DNA of 36,887 bases from a virus. This document shows positions 1,180-36,887 of this stretch, piece by piece; within the stretch, counting starts at the first letter, position 1; each line of letters begins with the position of its first letter. The translations under genes and the position numbers were made by a program. Location: positions 1 through 36,887 of the IMG/VR virus record IMGVR_UViG_3300043427_001290. One strand, 5' to 3'. The notes beneath the pieces were generated by a model. The model searched no databases. It was given only the letters and a program-made list of their open reading frames with translations, and was not told the origin of the DNA.

Positions 1180-2027
1180 TCCCCTACTACACCGGCTCAA
1201 TTTTTGAAACTACACCAATCGGTACAATTGATTTAAAAACGCTTATTCGACGGATTAAAAATCCGAAGCCGGAGGTAAAGCAGTTAGTCGACAGGATACA
1301 AAATTCAGACGGGCCGCAAAAGGCTAAATTAAAGACACAGCTCCCATTTTTTACACCTGCCATAAATTGTTCACGTCGCTGCTATAGCGCCATAAATCAT
1401 TTTACAGGCCTTATGCCTTTTGATTTTGATAAGTTAGGTAGAGCAGATGCAGAAGGTTTAAAAAGAGAGTTAATCAGTTACCCTTACGTCATAGCTACGT
1501 GGTTGAGTTCTTCGGGCGAAGGCGTACGGGGACTGGTTAGCGTCCCGGTATGCTTTGATACTGTTGAATTTAAAAAAAGGTTCAAAGCACTACAAAACAA
1601 ATGGAGTATATACAGAAATTTTGACCCAGCTCCACAAAATGCCGTACTGCCATTGTTCTATAGCTATGATTACGATTTGTTATATAATGAGGAATGGATA
1701 AATTTTACGGAAATTAACGAAACAAAGCCGATGCCGAATGTAGAGAAAATTATACTATATGGCGTAGATTCTAACGCCAAAGCAGTACATACGATTGCGA
1801 AAAAGAAAATCGACACAATTACAGACGCCGGACATTATACTTTAAGGGCGGTTAGTTATGCCGTTGGTGGGTACGTGGCACAAGGGTATGTTACACAACA
1901 AAAGGCTATTGAAATTATGGAAAATTTGATTGATAATAACAACTACCTAAAATTAAAGGCGTCAACTTATAAAAGAACAGCAAAAGAAATGATTTTAGCA
2001 GGTCAGAAAAATCCCTTAACAATATGA
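1176..2027 (+). CDS. BT4734/VirE-N-like primase-domain protein
   Basis: 283 residues. The block MPFDFDKL (residues 80-87) followed by SYPYVIATWLSSSGEGVRG (101-119) is the characteristic pattern of the BT4734-like/VirE N-terminal domain of Bacteroidetes mobile elements, a domain related to archaeo-eukaryotic primase folds; the two Asp of DFD are candidate metal ligands. In many Bacteroidetes proteins this domain is fused to a helicase of the type encoded immediately downstream; here the two are separate genes overlapping by 4 bases (ATGA), so they probably form one primase-helicase unit for phage DNA replication. Its GC content is visibly higher than that of the preceding PAPS reductase-like gene. 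Primase activity is inferred from family and context; the exact catalytic set cannot be confirmed by eye. Confidence 0.75.
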   Translation: MIPYYTGSIFETTPIGTIDLKTLIRRIKNPKPEVKQLVDRIQNSDGPQKAKLKTQLPFFTPAINCSRRCYSAINHFTGLMPFDFDKLGRADAEGLKRELISYPYVIATWLSSSGEGVRGLVSVPVCFDTVEFKKRFKALQNKWSIYRNFDPAPQNAVLPLFYSYDYDLLYNEEWINFTEINETKPMPNVEKIILYGVDSNAKAVHTIAKKKIDTITDAGHYTLRAVSYAVGGYVAQGYVTQQKAIEIMENLIDNNNYLKLKASTYKRTAKEMILAGQKNPLTI

Positions 2028-22234: not shown

Positions 22235-24045
22235 GGATACTGATTTTAATATTATTATTTCCGTTAGTTAGTTTTGGCCAAACAAAACTGTCACAATTAG
22301 AGAGATCCTCAACCCGATGGGATTTACCGGTGGCATATAGAAACGTTAACGGAACCTATGCGCAGGGGTATCTTGGGTTTTTGGAGTATCTTGACTCCAT
22401 TAATTACAGCGCACCGGGTATTAATGTAGTGATTCCCGGCTATGGCATTGAGGGGTTCATAACTAATGATACGCTGGTATTGTATGCCGACACTACGGAA
22501 CTACAACGTAAGTTAACACTAACTATATCTGGAACAAGTGGACCGGCTACACTAACGGGAGGCACTCTGAACATTCCACAATATACGGCAGGCATCAGCG
22601 GTACAGGAACACAATACAAAGTACCAAGATGGCTTACTTCATCATCACTTGAAAATAGCGCCACGCCGTTATGGGATTATAACGGCATTGTTGGGGTGGG
22701 TCAGACGGGTACGGGGGATTTTTCATCTAATACGCGAATATTTCAAGTGTATCAGCCGTCTGGCAGTTTGACGGCACAATATAAGTCAATAGGTTCGACA
22801 GATGTTTTTCAGCGCTACGAAAATGGAAACGGAAACTGGAATACAGGTATTCAATACGTATCAGCAACGGGGGGTAACGAATATCAAATAAGAAATAACT
22901 TAAGTACGTACTTCAAGATATACAACTCTGGTCAGTTGAACATCCCAAATCTAATAGGTACGGGAACTCGAATGGTGACGGTAACACCAAACGGAACGAT
23001 AACAAGCGCATCAATACCGGGAGGTGCTAATACTGACCTTTATTACACTAACTTAGGTACGGGTATAATTGGAATTAATAGCACGACGCAAACCGGATCA
23101 CCTATAAGATTAAACGCCGGAACAAATACAACGCTCACCTATACGGACCCAAACAACATCACTATAAGTTCATCGGGTGGTGGTGGTGCTACTAACTTAT
23201 CTTTTTCTGGCACAACTTCACCAGTCACCTTGAACTCATCAACAGGTACAGACGTAACATTTACCGCAGGGTCTAACGTCACTTTTTCGGCAACTGGCTC
23301 AAATATAACGATTGCAGCCTCTGGAGGTTCTGGGTCACTACCGGCAGGCACACAAAATCAGACGCTACGGCATAACGGCACAACATGGGTAAGTAATGAT
23401 GCATTAAGGGTTTTTGGTGTAGGTCTTTCAACGGAATATGTACAGGCTGGTAGTTTTTCTTTACCCTTTTCCGTAACATCAGGAACAGGTAGTACAGGTA
23501 CACGGCTTGCAGTTAATGGTGGCATTCAGTTAGTTCCGCAGGCTATAACATCAACCGGATTAAGTGGGTTGAGTTCCTCTAATAACATAACACGGATTAC
23601 GGTAGGCGCTGGGTTGAGTTTGACGAATAATACTTTGAGTGTGGGTGCTAATTACGCCTACATGGCTTATTCATCGCTAACGCAATCACCGACAACGGAC
23701 ATTAAATATGACTGGACTGCTTCATCAAGTGGCTCTACGGGTTCACCGACACCGAGTACTTTGAATGATAACTTTACAATAAATCAAGCAGGGACTTATG
23801 AAATTAATTTTAATGCAAATGTAAAAAACAGCGGCACGGCTAACGAAATTAATTTATATATAAGAGTAAATTCATCAAATCATTTAGCAACACGACGCAA
23901 CACACAAACCACAGTTTACGAATCATGTGCGAGTTCATTAGTCATAGGACTTAATGCAGGCGATACTGTTGACGTTTGGATAGATGTGACGTCAAATACA
24001 TTTAGCAGTAATTCAGGAACAATCACAATAAAAAGAATACAATAA
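22231..24045 (+). CDS. Tail fibre / receptor-binding protein with N-terminal signal peptide
   Basis: 604 residues. It begins MRILILILLFPLVSFG followed by Gln (predicted cleavage before Q), a clear Sec-type signal. The body is rich in Gly, Thr, Ser and Asn and contains fibre repeats, including a TLTISGTSGPATLTGGTLN block also present in the large fibre gene downstream. The C-terminal 110 residues (ANYAYMAYSSL ... GTYEINFNANVK ... SSLVIGLNAGDTVDVW) look like a C1q/TNF-type trimeric jelly roll, often the receptor-binding head. Overlaps the previous gene by 4 bases. A cleavable signal on a virion fibre is unusual because virions assemble in the cytoplasm. Confidence 0.7.
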   Translation: MRILILILLFPLVSFGQTKLSQLERSSTRWDLPVAYRNVNGTYAQGYLGFLEYLDSINYSAPGINVVIPGYGIEGFITNDTLVLYADTTELQRKLTLTISGTSGPATLTGGTLNIPQYTAGISGTGTQYKVPRWLTSSSLENSATPLWDYNGIVGVGQTGTGDFSSNTRIFQVYQPSGSLTAQYKSIGSTDVFQRYENGNGNWNTGIQYVSATGGNEYQIRNNLSTYFKIYNSGQLNIPNLIGTGTRMVTVTPNGTITSASIPGGANTDLYYTNLGTGIIGINSTTQTGSPIRLNAGTNTTLTYTDPNNITISSSGGGGATNLSFSGTTSPVTLNSSTGTDVTFTAGSNVTFSATGSNITIAASGGSGSLPAGTQNQTLRHNGTTWVSNDALRVFGVGLSTEYVQAGSFSLPFSVTSGTGSTGTRLAVNGGIQLVPQAITSTGLSGLSSSNNITRITVGAGLSLTNNTLSVGANYAYMAYSSLTQSPTTDIKYDWTASSSGSTGSPTPSTLNDNFTINQAGTYEINFNANVKNSGTANEINLYIRVNSSNHLATRRNTQTTVYESCASSLVIGLNAGDTVDVWIDVTSNTFSSNSGTITIKRIQ

Positions 24046-30409: not shown

Positions 30410-30995
30410 GGAGGCATACAAGCAGGACCAGTTAAAGTTATTACTTAACCAAGATCCACCCGCTCAATGGGTAAGGAAAAATAAATACGCCAACAATAGC
30501 GAGTACCTCCCAATTGACAAAGTAGAATATATGCTCGACAAAATCTTTCAAGTGTGGCGGCTGGAAATATTAGAGGCAAAACAGATGTTTAATGCCGTAG
30601 CCGTTGTAATTCGGCTGCATTATAAGAATCCTATTACGGGGGAAATGCACTACTATGACGGAGGTGGTGCAAAAGTTCTACAGACAACGAGTGGAAGTGG
30701 AGTATTGAAGCCGGACTTTAGCAATATAACATCCAACGCCGTGGAAATGGCGCTACCTATAGCGATAAGCTATGCCCTTAAAGATGCAGCGCATCACCTG
30801 GGGCGTTTGTTTGGGCGTGACCTTAACAGAACAGATGTAGCGGAATATAGGCAGACCTATCAGCCATATAATGAGGATGAGCAAGTAATCAAATTTATAG
30901 ATCAGGCGACAACAAAAGAAGAACTTGAATCTATTTTACATATGGTATCGGATACGACACGTGAAGCGTATAAATCTAAAATTGAGGCGTTATGA
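30360..30995 (+). CDS. Rad52-like single-strand annealing protein
   Basis: 211 residues from ATG 30360; a TTG four codons earlier is possible. Conserved pattern WVRKNKYANNSEYLPIDKVE, then IFQVWRLEILEAKQMFNAVA, VVIRLHYKNPITGEMHYYDG and ALPIAISYALKDAAHHLGRL with FGRDLNR. These blocks are those of the Rad52-type annealing proteins common in Bacteroidetes phages (double-stranded RNA-like fold with DG...K...A-x-S-x-A-x-K-x-A). It anneals complementary strands during phage recombination, working with the exonuclease encoded two genes downstream. The PAPS reductase-like gene sits between the two partners. Confidence 0.7.
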   Translation: MKQNSIVPTIQELTNDKEAYKQDQLKLLLNQDPPAQWVRKNKYANNSEYLPIDKVEYMLDKIFQVWRLEILEAKQMFNAVAVVIRLHYKNPITGEMHYYDGGGAKVLQTTSGSGVLKPDFSNITSNAVEMALPIAISYALKDAAHHLGRLFGRDLNRTDVAEYRQTYQPYNEDEQVIKFIDQATTKEELESILHMVSDTTREAYKSKIEAL

Positions 30996-31708
30996 AGCGT
31001 ATTATAAATTTTAGTGGAGGCAAAACATCAGCTTTAATGACAATACAAGAATACAATCCATTGACTGATTTTGTAATATTTTGCGACACAGGAAGAGAAC
31101 ACGAAAAAACTTATAAATTTATAAATGATTTTGAGGCATTTGAAAATATACCAGTTATAAGATTAGGTGGATTAGATGCATTTGATAATTATTTAAAAAA
31201 AATTAATTACAGACATTTACCTAATATGATGAAAAGATCTTGTACGGTTGAATTAAAAATAAAACCAGCGAGAAGATGGGCAAGAAAAAATATAGGTATG
31301 GAATATATTAATTTAATTGGATTTAGATATGATGAGCCGCAAAGGGTCGCAAAAAACAAAAGTAGGTGGCAAAAGGTAAAAAATATTTATCCATTATATA
31401 AAAATAAAATAAACAAATTAATGGTAAATGAATACTGGAAAGGCAAACCATACAATTTAGAAATACCTGCCATACTTGGCAATTGTACTTTATGCTTTAT
31501 GAAAGGCAAAAATAACATAATTAACATTTTAAAGCATGATCCAAATTTAGCAGATAAATGGATAAATGATGAAGAAAATTCAGAGTATAAATATTTTAAA
31601 GATATATCAATAAAGGAATTAAAAAAAATATCACAAATGCCTGATTTATTTTCAAATATTGAATTAGATTTATTAACACCTGCGTATGACTGCGCTTGCA
31701 CAAATTAA
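30992..31708 (+). CDS. PAPS reductase/PP-loop family protein
   Basis: 238 residues. PP-loop NFSGGKTSALM (SGGKTS at residues 8-13), FCDTGREHEKTY, then RSCTVELKIKPARRW, GFRYDEPQR and a C-terminal GNCTLCFMKGKNN plus terminal DCACTN. The PP-loop binds ATP or PAPS. Cysteines after the loop (CTV, CTLC, CAC) may bind a metal or Fe-S cluster, as in sulfur-transfer relatives such as DndC or TtcA-type enzymes. It differs from the DUF3440 protein at 36767-1179, so the phage has two. The gene is AT-rich. Overlaps the annealing-protein gene by 4 bases and the exonuclease start by up to 23. The substrate (sulfate, nucleic acid or other) is unknown. Confidence 0.8.
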   Translation: MKRIINFSGGKTSALMTIQEYNPLTDFVIFCDTGREHEKTYKFINDFEAFENIPVIRLGGLDAFDNYLKKINYRHLPNMMKRSCTVELKIKPARRWARKNIGMEYINLIGFRYDEPQRVAKNKSRWQKVKNIYPLYKNKINKLMVNEYWKGKPYNLEIPAILGNCTLCFMKGKNNIINILKHDPNLADKWINDEENSEYKYFKDISIKELKKISQMPDLFSNIELDLLTPAYDCACTN

Positions 31709-33321: not shown

Positions 33322-33879
33322 ATGAAAAAATTAACCACTTTATTTAAAAAAGATCCAAATGATTTAGCAAGGGTTATAGATGAAATAAACCCTGAAAATC
33401 AATGGGTATTTGATGGAGAAGCAATTGCCACACGTAAATTTGACGGTACTGCTTCAGCTATTATTAATGGTGAACTTTATAAAAGATATGATGTAAAAAA
33501 AGGTAGACAAATACCAGAAAATTCAATAGCTTGTCAAGATCCTGATCCAATTACCGGTCATCATCCACATTGGGTAAAATGTGATAGGAATAAAACTGAA
33601 GATAAATATTTTTTTGAGGCATTTGATATTTTACAAAACAAAGAAGATGGAACTTATGAACTTTGTGGAAATAAAGTGCAAGGAAACCCTGAAAAAATAG
33701 ATGGTCATAAACTTATCAAACATGGGTCTGAAAAATTAATATTAAATTCTTTATATTTTGAAGATTTATATGAGTTTTTATCTGATCCTTATAATGATAT
33801 TGAAGGTATTGTATTTCATCATAAATCAGATGATCGTATGTGCAAACTTAGAAAGTCAGATTTTGGAGTAAAAAGATAA
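33322..33879 (+). CDS. RLIG1-like RNA ligase (DUF5565-type nucleotidyltransferase)
   Basis: 185 residues, the size of a bare nucleotidyltransferase domain. Motif I: ATRKFDGTASAI with catalytic Lys39 (K-F-D-G). Motif IV: EGIVFHH at 161-167. Motif V: CKLRKSDFG (174-182) with Lys175. The intervening GHHPHWVKCDRNKTEDKYFF and HKLIKHGSE blocks follow the order of the RLIG1 (human C12orf29) family of 5'-3' RNA ligases. It seals 5'-phosphate/3'-hydroxyl ends after self-adenylation. In a phage it may repair tRNA or other RNA broken by host anticodon nucleases. No polynucleotide kinase gene is seen nearby. Neighbour to the defective methyltransferase. Confidence 0.82.
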   Translation: MKKLTTLFKKDPNDLARVIDEINPENQWVFDGEAIATRKFDGTASAIINGELYKRYDVKKGRQIPENSIACQDPDPITGHHPHWVKCDRNKTEDKYFFEAFDILQNKEDGTYELCGNKVQGNPEKIDGHKLIKHGSEKLILNSLYFEDLYEFLSDPYNDIEGIVFHHKSDDRMCKLRKSDFGVKR

Positions 33880-33897
33880 CCAATTAAATAATGAACA

Positions 33898-34575
33898 ATG
33901 AACGATATATTTACATGGAATGAAATCAACTATGTTGAGGAACTTTCTAACAAATTAGATACACTTGAAAACAAAGATGATATAGATCAATTAGTTAGCG
34001 ATTTGATTTATAAAGTATCTGATATAATGATGGATTATAATAGATACAAAATTAATTCAATGTCAGATCAAGATTTTAGAGAAATTTACAATAATACTTT
34101 AATAGGTTTCCCGTACAATGAAGCCCACCTTTATATTTTTTGCTCTTGGCATAATATCGACTTATTTAAAGAAAAAGTAGGTGCATATTTTAACGTTAAA
34201 AATATATTGATATGGGAAAAGAACAATACAGGAATGGGTGATTTAGAAGGCGATTATGCACCGAAATATGAAATGATATTATTTTGTAGTAACGGAAGCA
34301 AAAAATTAAATGGTGGGCGTGATGCTAATATACTGAAGGCAAAACGAACAGGAAACAAAAACCACCCAACTGAAAAGCCTGTGAACCTAATAAGCTATTT
34401 GATAGAGAAAAGTAGTAATGAAAACGATATTGTTTTGGATACTTTTGCAGGTAGCTTTTCAACTGCACAGGCTTGTAAACAAAAGAAGCGAAACTTTATT
34501 TGCTTTGAAATTGAAGAGGAATATTGTAGAACCGCAAAAAACTTGCTTAATGGTGTATCGGTCAGCTTATTTTAG
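33898..34575 (+). CDS. DNA methyltransferase-like protein lacking the catalytic DPPY region
   Basis: 225 residues. From about residue 76 the sequence is a clear N4/N6 beta-class DNA methyltransferase: HLYIFCSWHNIDLFK, ILIWEKNN, HPTEKPVNLISYLIEKSS (from 156) and the SAM-binding DTFAGSFST (181-189) with FICFEIEEEYC. The beta-class order is motif IV (DPPY), then X and I; no DPPY, NPPY or SPPY is present anywhere, and residues 1-70 (MNDIFTWNEINYVEELSN onward) are unrelated helical sequence. So either an in-frame deletion has fused an upstream small gene to a methyltransferase C-terminal part, or this is a SAM-binding derivative without methylation. I expect loss of activity. Confidence 0.75.
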   Translation: MNDIFTWNEINYVEELSNKLDTLENKDDIDQLVSDLIYKVSDIMMDYNRYKINSMSDQDFREIYNNTLIGFPYNEAHLYIFCSWHNIDLFKEKVGAYFNVKNILIWEKNNTGMGDLEGDYAPKYEMILFCSNGSKKLNGGRDANILKAKRTGNKNHPTEKPVNLISYLIEKSSNENDIVLDTFAGSFSTAQACKQKKRNFICFEIEEEYCRTAKNLLNGVSVSLF

Positions 34576-34642: not shown

Positions 34643-34885
34643 ATGTATAACAAACCACACAGCAATTTTTTTAAACCCGAAGAACTACAGGCGCTATATC
34701 GAATGACTAACCGATTAAGCGAATTTGTTGAGGAACATGATGTAAATGAGCATCTTGAATCTATAGACAAAAACTTATATTATGCTTATGATTTGGCAAG
34801 GCTGATTAATGAATATTTTGATACCGGGATGACTGATGGAGAATTTGAAAACGCATATAAAATAATAATTAATGACCCGAACTAA
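34643..34885 (+). CDS. Hypothetical protein (80 aa)
   Basis: Not recognised. Helical, acidic (LSEFVEEHDVNEHLESIDKN). It lies 67 bases after the methyltransferase-like gene and overlaps the nuclease gene by 14 bases. No membrane segment or metal motif. Confidence 0.55.
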   Translation: MYNKPHSNFFKPEELQALYRMTNRLSEFVEEHDVNEHLESIDKNLYYAYDLARLINEYFDTGMTDGEFENAYKIIINDPN

Positions 34886-35342
34886 TCGTCAACGCTTCGC
34901 CGATTTACTGCTGGAGGAATCCAGACAGAAATACCCTAACTTGCCGGATCATGCACGTGCCATAACAGTACCGTCAGACAATAGCACTAACGGACTTACG
35001 AAGTCTGTGATTAAGTGGATTGAACTTAACGGGTATCAGGCCGAGCGGATCAACTCTACAGGGCGCTACATAGACAATCGAAAGGTCGTTACTAACGTGG
35101 TAGGTCAACAGGCTCTGATTGGTTCGGGAAAGTGGATTAAATCGAGTGGTACGGTAGGAACAGCGGATATTTCGTCAGTCATCAAGGGCCGGAGCGTGAA
35201 AATAGAAATAAAATTTGGCAAAGATAGTCAAAGTTCAAAGCAGAAGGATTATCAAGCAGCCATAGAACGTGCAGGAGGTATATATATTATAGTGCGAGAT
35301 TTTGACGGGTTTTTGGAGTGGTGGGATAAGCACTTGTTATAA
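34872..35342 (+). CDS. VRR-NUC-like PD-(D/E)XK nuclease
   Basis: 156 residues. The core SGTVGTADISSVIKGRSVKI followed by EIKFGKDSQSSKQKDYQAAI matches VRR-NUC-type nucleases: Asp in GTAD, the Glu-x-Lys pair EIK, and a Gln in the following helix. C-terminal AGGIYIIVRDFDGFL completes the fold. Small phage VRR-NUC proteins can process Holliday junctions or other structured DNA. It is the last gene of the accessory operon; hairpins and a terminator follow. Confidence 0.78.
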   Translation: MTRTNRQRFADLLLEESRQKYPNLPDHARAITVPSDNSTNGLTKSVIKWIELNGYQAERINSTGRYIDNRKVVTNVVGQQALIGSGKWIKSSGTVGTADISSVIKGRSVKIEIKFGKDSQSSKQKDYQAAIERAGGIYIIVRDFDGFLEWWDKHLL

Positions 35343-35442: not shown

Positions 35443-35483
35443 CCCGGCATCCTTCCAAAAGTGGTGGTGATGTCTGGGTTTTT
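35443..35483 (+). terminator. Intrinsic terminator before the ParB-like unit
   Basis: CCCGG-CATC-C (35443-35452) can pair with G-GATG-bulge T-CTGGG (up to 35478), with further G-C pairs toward an A-rich loop at 35457-35460, followed by TTTTT (35479-35483). It closes the accessory operon. The T run is also part of the -33 element of the next promoter. Confidence 0.6.
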
Positions 35484-35513
35484 GAAACATATTAAAACTT
35501 TATAGTATATTTG
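35481..35513 (+). promoter_or_regulatory. Promoter with Bacteroidetes -33/-7 elements
   Basis: TTTG (35481-35484), a 21-base spacer and TATATTTG (35506-35513), a very good match to TTTG-N19-21-TAnnTTTG. Transcription should begin near 35518, giving a leader of about 108 bases before the ParB-like ATG at 35626. Confidence 0.8.
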
Positions 35514-35517
35514 CAAG

Positions 35518-35607
35518 CGGTCACGTCTCACGTTATATGACCATAAAGAAATTTGGGCCCTTGGTTTGAATCTGAAGTGAGACGCAGAGGATAATCAGGG
35601 GTTTTTT
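35518..35607 (+). promoter_or_regulatory. Candidate attenuator/riboswitch-like leader RNA
   Basis: One fold is an 8-bp stem CGTCTCAC (35524-35531) with GTGAGACG (35577-35584) closing a three-way junction with a small hairpin (35541-35556) and a T-loop-like hairpin TTGG-TTTGAAT-CTGA (35561-35575). The other is a 9-bp stem CCCTTGGTT (35558-35566) with AATCAGGGG (35593-35601), directly followed by TTTTTT (35602-35607), an intrinsic terminator. The two folds cross and use the same bases 35561-35566, so they should exclude each other. I do not recognise a known riboswitch class. Confidence 0.55.
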
Positions 35608-35625: not shown

Positions 35626-36765
35626 ATGAACATTAAAAATTATGTTGACAATATCATTGAATATATAAATTCAATTGATAATTTAAATGAAAAAATTAAT
35701 ATAATTAATGAGATTAGACAATCATTACATGATGTGTCACCATTTAAAAATGAACCTGTTGATTATGTAAAATGGATTAAAAGTGATTGTGTTATTGCAA
35801 ATGATTATAATCCAAATAAAGTTGCTCCACCTGAAATGCAACTTTTAGAGATATCTATAATGAACGATGGATATACACAACCAGTAGTTACTTTTCCAAA
35901 AAATGAAAATGAAGTTGAAGTTGTTGATGGATTTCATAGAACAAGAGTAAGTAAAGAGTCAAAAATTGTAAAATCAAGAATTTTTGGTTATACTCCTACT
36001 GTTATAATACGCAAAAATCAGTCAGACAAAAACGATCGTATAGCATCTACAATAAGACATAATAGGGCAAGAGGTAAACATCAAGTTGATGCAATGAGCG
36101 AAATTGTATTAGAACTAAAAGCACGTAATTGGAAAAACGAAAGGATTGCAAGAGAACTTGGTATGGATCAAGATGAAATATTAAGATTATGCCAAATAAC
36201 AGGATTATCAGATATTTTTAAAGATGATGATTTTTCAAAAGCATGGGAATCTGATAATACAATAAGTATAAACGATTACGAAATTTTGACAGATGATTTA
36301 ACAGATGAAGAAATACATTATAGGACTGTAAACACATCAGACCCTGATCGAATATTTCACACATGGGAAAATTGGGAATGTCATAAAGCGGGTTTTTATA
36401 AATCTAAATTTGAAGGATTTACCGAAGAACAATGCGAGCAAATGTATTGTGATTTTTTATCTGATGATACTAAATTTAGAGAAGCTTTAAATAAAGTTAT
36501 ATATGAATGGAAAAATTCATGTGAACATTATTTAACAAATAAAGCAATGAATCGCATCGCATGGTTAGGTCAAGCAGCTATGTGTTTAGCTACTGGAGTA
36601 CCATCTAAATATTGTGCAGGTTTTAACTTATTGTCCGAAGAACAAAAATCAATAGCTAATAATACAGCATTAGAATTTTTAAATATTTGGATGAAAAATA
36701 ATAATAGAAATATTTGCTCACTTGAAGAAGCAATGTCATTAGGAAGACAAATAAATATATATTAA
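35626..36765 (+). CDS. ParB-like nuclease/ATPase-domain protein (IbrB-like)
   Basis: 379 residues. The ParB N-terminal domain spans about 50-150: ANDYNPNKVAPPEMQLL, IMNDGYTQPVVTF, VEVVDGFHRTRV (the G-x-H-R nucleotide-binding motif at 102-105) and STIRHNRARGKH. A helix-turn-helix follows (WKNERIARELGMDQDEILRL, 169-188). The C-terminal half has no recognised domain but is rich in Trp, Cys and acidic residues. ParB/sulfiredoxin-fold proteins hydrolyse ATP or CTP. Together with the PAPS reductase-like protein it forms the IbrB-IbrA type pair, whose biochemical product is not established. The leader and promoter above are exclusive to it. Confidence 0.82.
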   Translation: MNIKNYVDNIIEYINSIDNLNEKINIINEIRQSLHDVSPFKNEPVDYVKWIKSDCVIANDYNPNKVAPPEMQLLEISIMNDGYTQPVVTFPKNENEVEVVDGFHRTRVSKESKIVKSRIFGYTPTVIIRKNQSDKNDRIASTIRHNRARGKHQVDAMSEIVLELKARNWKNERIARELGMDQDEILRLCQITGLSDIFKDDDFSKAWESDNTISINDYEILTDDLTDEEIHYRTVNTSDPDRIFHTWENWECHKAGFYKSKFEGFTEEQCEQMYCDFLSDDTKFREALNKVIYEWKNSCEHYLTNKAMNRIAWLGQAAMCLATGVPSKYCAGFNLLSEEQKSIANNTALEFLNIWMKNNNRNICSLEEAMSLGRQINIY

Positions 36766-36766
36766 A

Positions 36767-36887
36767 ATGGCAACAAAAAGATATTTACAAATTAATGTAT
36801 TGGATGCATCAAAAAATAGAATATCAAAAGTTTTTGATGAATTTGAAAATATTTATATTTCTTTTTCAGGTGGCAAAGATTCAAGTG
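36767..36887 (+). CDS. PAPS reductase-like protein (IbrA-like), 5' portion; continues at base 1
   Basis: True start of the split gene: ATG 36767, one base after the ParB-like stop. It begins MATKRYLQINVLDASKNRIS, in frame with base 1 (36794 equals 1). The PP-loop SGGKDS (residues 34-39) lies in the duplicated part. The complete protein has 401 residues; the rest is described under 1-1179. Confidence 0.9.
   Translation, partial: MATKRYLQINVLDASKNRISKVFDEFENIYISFSGGKDSS
36794..36887. repeat. Terminal repeat, right copy (identical to 1-94)
   Basis: Exact duplicate of the first 94 bases. Removing one copy gives a 36,793-bp circle. Confidence 0.95.

Follow-up and report, generated by a model that had tools for sequence, protein, structure and literature searches.

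The attenuators of the pT181 type naturally sit in the leader of a replication gene. The HK022 put RNAs are structured RNAs at the start of phage operons that act on termination, and in the hok/AapA-type I toxin mRNAs the 5' end of a short RNA pairs with its 3' region. In pT181-type antisense attenuators, an intrinsic terminator is governed by contact between two RNA loops, and the sequences of the loops can diverge into independent pairs (PMC3753616). The fluoride (PMC11077080), preQ1-I and ZMP riboswitches combine a pseudoknot with an intrinsic terminator. The leader described here resembles each of these systems in the respects just named. It lies in the window, the whole stretch of DNA that was analyzed, which is an entire IMG/VR virus record of 36,887 bp.

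Helix K, formed by the kissing sequences K5 and K3, is a loop-loop pseudoknot in which the loop of a hairpin near +1 (HP1) pairs with the apical loop of an intact intrinsic terminator (Table 1). The original prediction had placed an excellent -33/-7 promoter upstream of two mutually exclusive folds. The promoter is present as TTTG-N21-TATATTTG, the consensus being TTTG at -33 and TAnnTTTG at -7 (as quoted in PMC7366714); the motif by itself is weak because the window contains 5 matches versus 2.0 expected. With the start site inferred from this promoter, HP1 is predicted to begin at about +1. The 8-bp complementarity of K is exact, and the 9-bp stem of the terminator leads straight into U6. 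The two folds do cross each other, which makes them a pseudoknot, but they do not share bases: 35524-35531/35577-35584 and 35558-35566/35593-35601 are disjoint. In the window, K has no bases in common with the lower (P2) and upper (P3) stems of the terminator, so that the folds are compatible and not mutually exclusive. The minimum-energy fold of the leader is the terminator (-24.0), with K3 precisely in the apical loop. When K was forced to form as an ordinary nested stem, the energy was -16.7, a penalty of about 7 kcal/mol. The three-way junction that this stem was said to be able to close is rejected, and the T-loop-like heptaloop TTTGAAT is not supported: in relatives its bases fall at the end of P2, in the conserved UGAA/GGAU internal loop and at the start of P3, of which they supply the first base.

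Table 1. Positions of the leader elements and neighboring genes in the window, and of related features in other contigs
Feature	Sequence	Position	Strand	Remarks
Bacteroidota-type promoter	window	35481-35513	+	TTTG 35481-35484, N21 spacer, TATATTTG 35506-35513
Hairpin 1 (HP1)	window	35519-35542	+	GGTCA 35519-35523 with TGACC 35538-35542
K5, 5' kissing sequence, in HP1 loop	window	35524-35531	+	CGTCTCAC; exact complement of K3, covaries
HP1 loop tail	window	35532-35537	+	GTTATA; relatives mostly ATTATA
A/U-rich linker into G-rich foot of terminator	window	35543-35557	+	related to AAAG..UUAUU motif of relatives
Terminator lower stem P2, 5' arm	window	35558-35566	+	CCCTTGGTT; partner 35593-35601
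Internal loop	window	35567-35570 (5' side), 35589-35592 (3' side)	+	UGAA (5' side), GGAU (3' side)
Upper stem P3, 5' arm	window	35571-35574	+	TCTG; partner CAGA 35585-35588
AA at 5' edge of apical loop	window	35575-35576	+	directly after P3 5' arm
K3, 3' kissing sequence, in terminator apical loop	window	35577-35584	+	GTGAGACG
3' arms	window	35585-35601	+	P3 CAGA 35585-35588, GGAT 35589-35592, P2 AATCAGGGG 35593-35601
Intrinsic-terminator U-tract (U6)	window	35602-35607	+	
Upstream gene	window	34872-35342		leader lies between this gene and the ParB-like gene
ParB-like (IbrB-like) gene	window	35626-36765	+	first of the operon proposed to be gated; Pfam ParB_N 1.9e-4; PHROG 2159 ParB-like 9e-67
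PAPS-reductase/IbrA-like gene, start (..SGGKDS)	window	36767-36887	+	cut by end of record
Second PAPS-reductase-like gene	window	30992-31708		Pfam PF01507, 1e-7; lies well upstream of the IbrB/IbrA-like pair
RNA ligase 1 match	window	33322-33879		Pfam RLIG1, 6e-6; adjoins DNA methylase 33898-34575
Riemerella phage leader	L170	7770-7990	+	
Riemerella phage leader, second copy	L170	near 22,620-22,770	-	
Further Riemerella phage leaders	L175-L179			
Short ORF of type C leaders, example	L106	about 1885-1925		
DUF805b RNA	L169	12781-12815		Rfam RF02914, 52 bits; directly before ParB-like gene of Flavobacterium phage lillamy9-1

Among IMG/VR homologs of the ParB-like gene, leaders unrelated in sequence share one common plan: a TAnnTTTG promoter, a hairpin at about +1, and then a terminator hairpin with a loop complementary to that of the hairpin before it. 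When 1.1 Mb of sequence (both strands) was scanned with a descriptor of this plan, 25 places scored at least 32, versus 0 in dinucleotide shuffles, and nearly all of the 25 are 5-37 nt upstream of an ATG. This descriptor requires complementarity; two further tests were made without that requirement, with type C leaders collected by gene and type A leaders by promoter and loop. For type A, 111 viral stretches (60 unique) were picked from IMG/VR by the promoter and the HP1 loop motif alone. A complement of at least 7 nt was present at the right place downstream in 58 of the 60 unique sites, compared with 1.8% of shuffled sequences. Furthermore, a U-run of at least five was found in 72 of 78 type A relatives, which had been selected without a terminator criterion. 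Several contigs have two elements (L004, L009, L068, L083, L085, L112, L121, L170), and the kissing sequences always differ between the two, in cases too few to show selection for different kissing sequences.

The type A covariation alignment consists of 39 distinct sequences. First MAFFT alignments of the mixed type A leaders, A2 and A3, were inconsistent with the structure and were left out. In helix K, 97.8% of cells are paired. Column pair 23/87, which the search pattern left free, pairs in all 39 sequences and uses all four Watson-Crick types (CG 12, GC 11, AU 9, UA 7); the pattern itself dictated six of the eight K pairs, which therefore do not vary. All 10 aligned pairs of P2 covary, as do three of the four pairs of P3, the closing G-C being kept in 39/39. 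Both sides have changed in 5/5 pairs of HP1, where 82% of cells are paired in the relatives. Taken over the type A helices, 94% of cells pair versus 33-52% in slid controls. The conserved single-stranded parts are the internal loop (UGAA in 31/39, with GGAU in 25/39 or GGAG in 8/39 on the 3' side), the AA before K3 (37/39) and the loop tail after K5, which is part of the search pattern (ATTATA 36/39, GTTATA 3/39). In most elements leaving K3 unpaired costs nothing, and therefore the terminator and K can coexist. Covariation of the stems had been proposed as the check on the original prediction, and compensatory changes were found in them rather than the lack of covariation that would speak against it; the structured leader with an intrinsic terminator is thus borne out.

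The leader of the window has the type A features, namely HP1 at +1, a covarying K, UGAA/GGAU, the AA-K3 loop and the U-tract. It scores 97.5 bits with covariance model R2, whose 43 training rows include it, and four leaders outside the training set (L033, L051, L057, L144) score 46-57 bits. The finding is real and larger than was originally thought: as judged by sequence comparison, this leader belongs to an undescribed and widespread class of leader RNAs in phages.

A sister type, type C, was collected upstream of a DUF6291 gene family (26 sequences). Here the RNA begins with K5, whose partner is a stretch next to a small hairpin within the terminator. HP1 is absent, so it is not essential to the class. 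In type C, 99.9% of cells are paired versus 29-50% in slid controls, and seven of the nine K pairs have changed at both positions, with G-U pairs occurring as well. Some of these leaders have a short U-tract (TATTTGG, TTTATTC), so that termination in type C may be weak. Many type C leaders, not all, contain a short ORF (MKNISNPITTALP, then stop) that starts immediately downstream of K5 and stops just short of the P3 hairpin. A leader peptide was considered and rejected: the frame of the type C ORF (MKNILNPITTALP, then stop) is broken in several rows, and no consistent counterpart was seen by eye in type A.

K is 15 bp long in the Riemerella phages, where the start-codon region of the following gene repeats 12-13 nt of K5 exactly. 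These K5 copies exist in four versions that change together with K3, which can pair either with K5 or with the start codon region. The start regions read MYNQ, MLIQ, MFKQ or MFKT, and the protein sequence after that is conserved. Contig L060 has a 10-nt K5-like copy just upstream of the ATG. Start-region copies of K of at least 9 nt were found in 6 of 57 distinct elements versus 0.05 expected; one of the six lies on the reverse strand within a Riemerella leader, which leaves fewer than six independent cases. Given this pairing potential, it is plausible that the Riemerella leaders carry an added translational switch. The either/or choice originally predicted seems, on this evidence, to belong only to the Riemerella-phage subtype, at the start codon instead of the terminator.

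The cultured carriers are Flavobacterium phages of the Lillamyvirus/Muminvirus group, Cellulophaga phi19:1 and the Riemerella phages. Homologs found by blastn in Flavobacterium phages have three kissing versions, GTGAGACG/CGTCTCAC, GTGAGAAG/CTTCTCAC and GTGGAACG/CGTTCCAC, which differ by double changes; in these phages each of the window's two kissing sequences stands in the other loop. Flavobacterium phage 11b, F. columnare phage FCL-2 and Bacteroides phage B40-8 are probable carriers. The descriptor scores were 33 for 11b, 31 for phi19:1 and 29.5 for FCL-2. In three shuffles of the cultured-phage genomes, scores of 34 or more never occurred and scores of 29-33 did, so these three assignments rest on anatomy as well as score. 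Flavobacterium phage lillamy9-1 carries both a kissing-terminator leader and a DUF805b RNA. In a 2020 study, 38 LMO isolates were described as virulent or lytic, tooticki6-1 explicitly, which disfavors a role in prophage immunity (PMC7077304).

The element was also sought among known families and in bacterial genomes. No covariance model of Rfam 15 matched the elements at gathering score (the best E value, 0.78, was spurious), in line with the original statement that no described class has these features. In the open-access literature, to which the search was confined, no description of the element was found. A 2021 screen reported a 109-bp palindromic Bacteroidetes candidate, HMP_4078, near phage primase domains (PMC8040213); compared by description only, it could be a relative of the kissing-terminator leaders. 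An exact 24-nt search with the window's own leader gave no match, and no element was found in bacterial genomes with the ParB-like protein as an anchor. Searches of the blast type miss the element because it is defined by shape and complementarity, not by sequence. The covariance models R1 and R2 found none in 395 genomes of the phylum each, a weak negative with about 10 candidates scored per genome and no positive control. The type C DNA pattern gave 20 matches in genomes, and the seven that were read looked like coding DNA.

An ORF begins within 70 nt downstream in 58/58 type A elements. Of the 58 first genes, 23 fall in one group with a DnaD-like helicase-loader representative, and others encode DUF6291 proteins, BT4734-like primases, Prim-Pol, HNH nucleases and ParB with a methylase. 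ParB-like genes follow only a minority of the carriers. In the window, the PAPS-reductase/IbrA-like region has an IbrA match in a Streptococcus phage. The downstream genes suggest control of phage DNA replication and metabolism, not sulfur sensing.

At the sequence level, the recurring pattern shows the architecture of the transcript and covariation shows the helices, and the gene context is likewise established; termination and regulated read-through, with whatever governs it, are what we infer. The order of a promoter, an intrinsic terminator and a gene on the same strand is that of a leader terminator. The leader is probably, by a modest measure of confidence, a phage transcription attenuator; this reading is preferred because type A retains the terminator with its U-tract and there is always a gene downstream. 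Transcription would start at the Bacteroidota TAnnTTTG promoter, and the first nucleotides would fold into HP1. About 40-60 nt later the nascent RNA would form the terminator hairpin, with K3 in its apical loop pairing with K5 in the HP1 loop, and this compact kissing complex would end in the U-tract, shortly before the first gene. By default RNA polymerase would stop and release an RNA of about 90 nt. If an infection factor or condition bound the conserved non-helical parts, or broke the kissing contact, polymerase would pass and the replication, DNA-metabolism or ParB operon would be opened. In the Riemerella phages and one other contig, where K3 may also pair with the start codon region, the K5 arm would probably free or block translation. 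No alternative antiterminator fold toggled by K was found, and a stem sharing bases with the terminator is absent in the window; since K and the terminator are compatible, the leader would not be a classical antiterminator.

It was also considered that translation or mRNA stability is the main target of the leader, a kissing complex or pseudoknot by the AUG blocking or admitting ribosomes or protecting the 5' end, with an incidental U-tract. The structure does end near the AUG (about 9-11 nt from the terminator end in type C), and the start-codon copies in the Riemerella phages and L060 make K3 a possible anti-start. However, the retention of the U-tract in type A and the absence of a K copy at the start codon in about 50 of the 57 elements make this reading unlikely, if worth keeping in mind. 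The released RNA of about 90 nt could itself be the functional product, a decoy, titrator or trans-acting sRNA, and the next gene would then be expressed only through leakage; the RNA's own promoter, compact fold and intrinsic terminator would suit such a role. The K arms pair mutually in cis, though, the K sequences vary freely, the element is always directly before a gene, and GTCTCAC occurs in the window only in the K5 and K3 arms, leaving no second site there as a trans target, so that this proposal is distinctly improbable. A related idea makes the kissing sequence an address: leader RNAs released from many phage genomes within one cell would pair in trans with nascent leaders, replication genes would respond to phage copy number, and co-infecting phages with the same K would interfere. 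This long shot, if true, would be a lytic-phage counterpart of plasmid incompatibility.

A put/nut-like RNA that modifies the passing polymerase to ignore terminators, its own included, would agree with the position at +1 of phage operons and with conserved single-stranded patches beside variable helices. Yet the element itself ends in a good terminator, and we know of no comparable case with an integrated terminator; this account is very unlikely. The original prediction favored a riboswitch sensing a metabolite linked to the PAPS-reductase-like product, or else autoregulation by the ParB-like protein, since a leader with a terminator precedes that pair in the window. In other phages the element precedes unrelated genes (DnaD-like helicase loaders, DUF6291, primases, HNH nucleases, methylases), and it is absent before most ParB homologs. 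A metabolite riboswitch would be expected to have a conserved binding core and genes of one pathway; here the genes are varied and the conserved patches differ between subtypes. A PAPS-linked sensor is unlikely with replication initiators, primases, ParB-like, HNH and methylase genes downstream, and a ligand of either kind is scarcely to be expected. Finally, the folding energy of the single window sequence is unremarkable (z -1.5), as it would be for a chance terminator with an inverted repeat or for a DNA operator with two inverted half-sites. Covariation with G-U pairs, the location of K in loops and the 58/60 recurrence make the chance of either negligible; the case that the structure is more than chance is comparative, resting on these and on the descriptor hits versus shuffles.

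This structured RNA recurs before replication and DNA-metabolism genes in Flavobacterium, Cellulophaga, Riemerella and probably Bacteroides phages, and little is known of phage gene control in these hosts. A message whose 5' end kisses its own terminator loop offers a direct test of the effect of loop-loop contacts on intrinsic termination, and the kissing-terminator leaders are possible orthogonal parts for gene control in Bacteroidota.

Among the known systems, HK022 put has, to our knowledge, neither an integrated terminator nor a covarying kissing helix. In the hok/AapA-type mRNAs the likeness extends to the Riemerella K3, which matches a start region; unlike them, the leader shows no toxin peptide or antisense gene and is followed by a separate gene. 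DUF805b RNA is likewise cis-regulatory and is found in the same Flavobacterium phage before another ParB-like gene, but it is an unrelated 35-nt motif, and the leader elements lack an Rfam match. In contrast to the pseudoknotted riboswitches, the leader has no aptamer-like core common to all subtypes and no metabolic gene context, and its terminator is part of the fold instead of the alternative to it. In the pT181-type attenuators a separate antisense RNA supplies the partner loop, and a search with the K motif found no further copy in the window; the leader has its two loops in a single transcript, one of them being the loop of the terminator.
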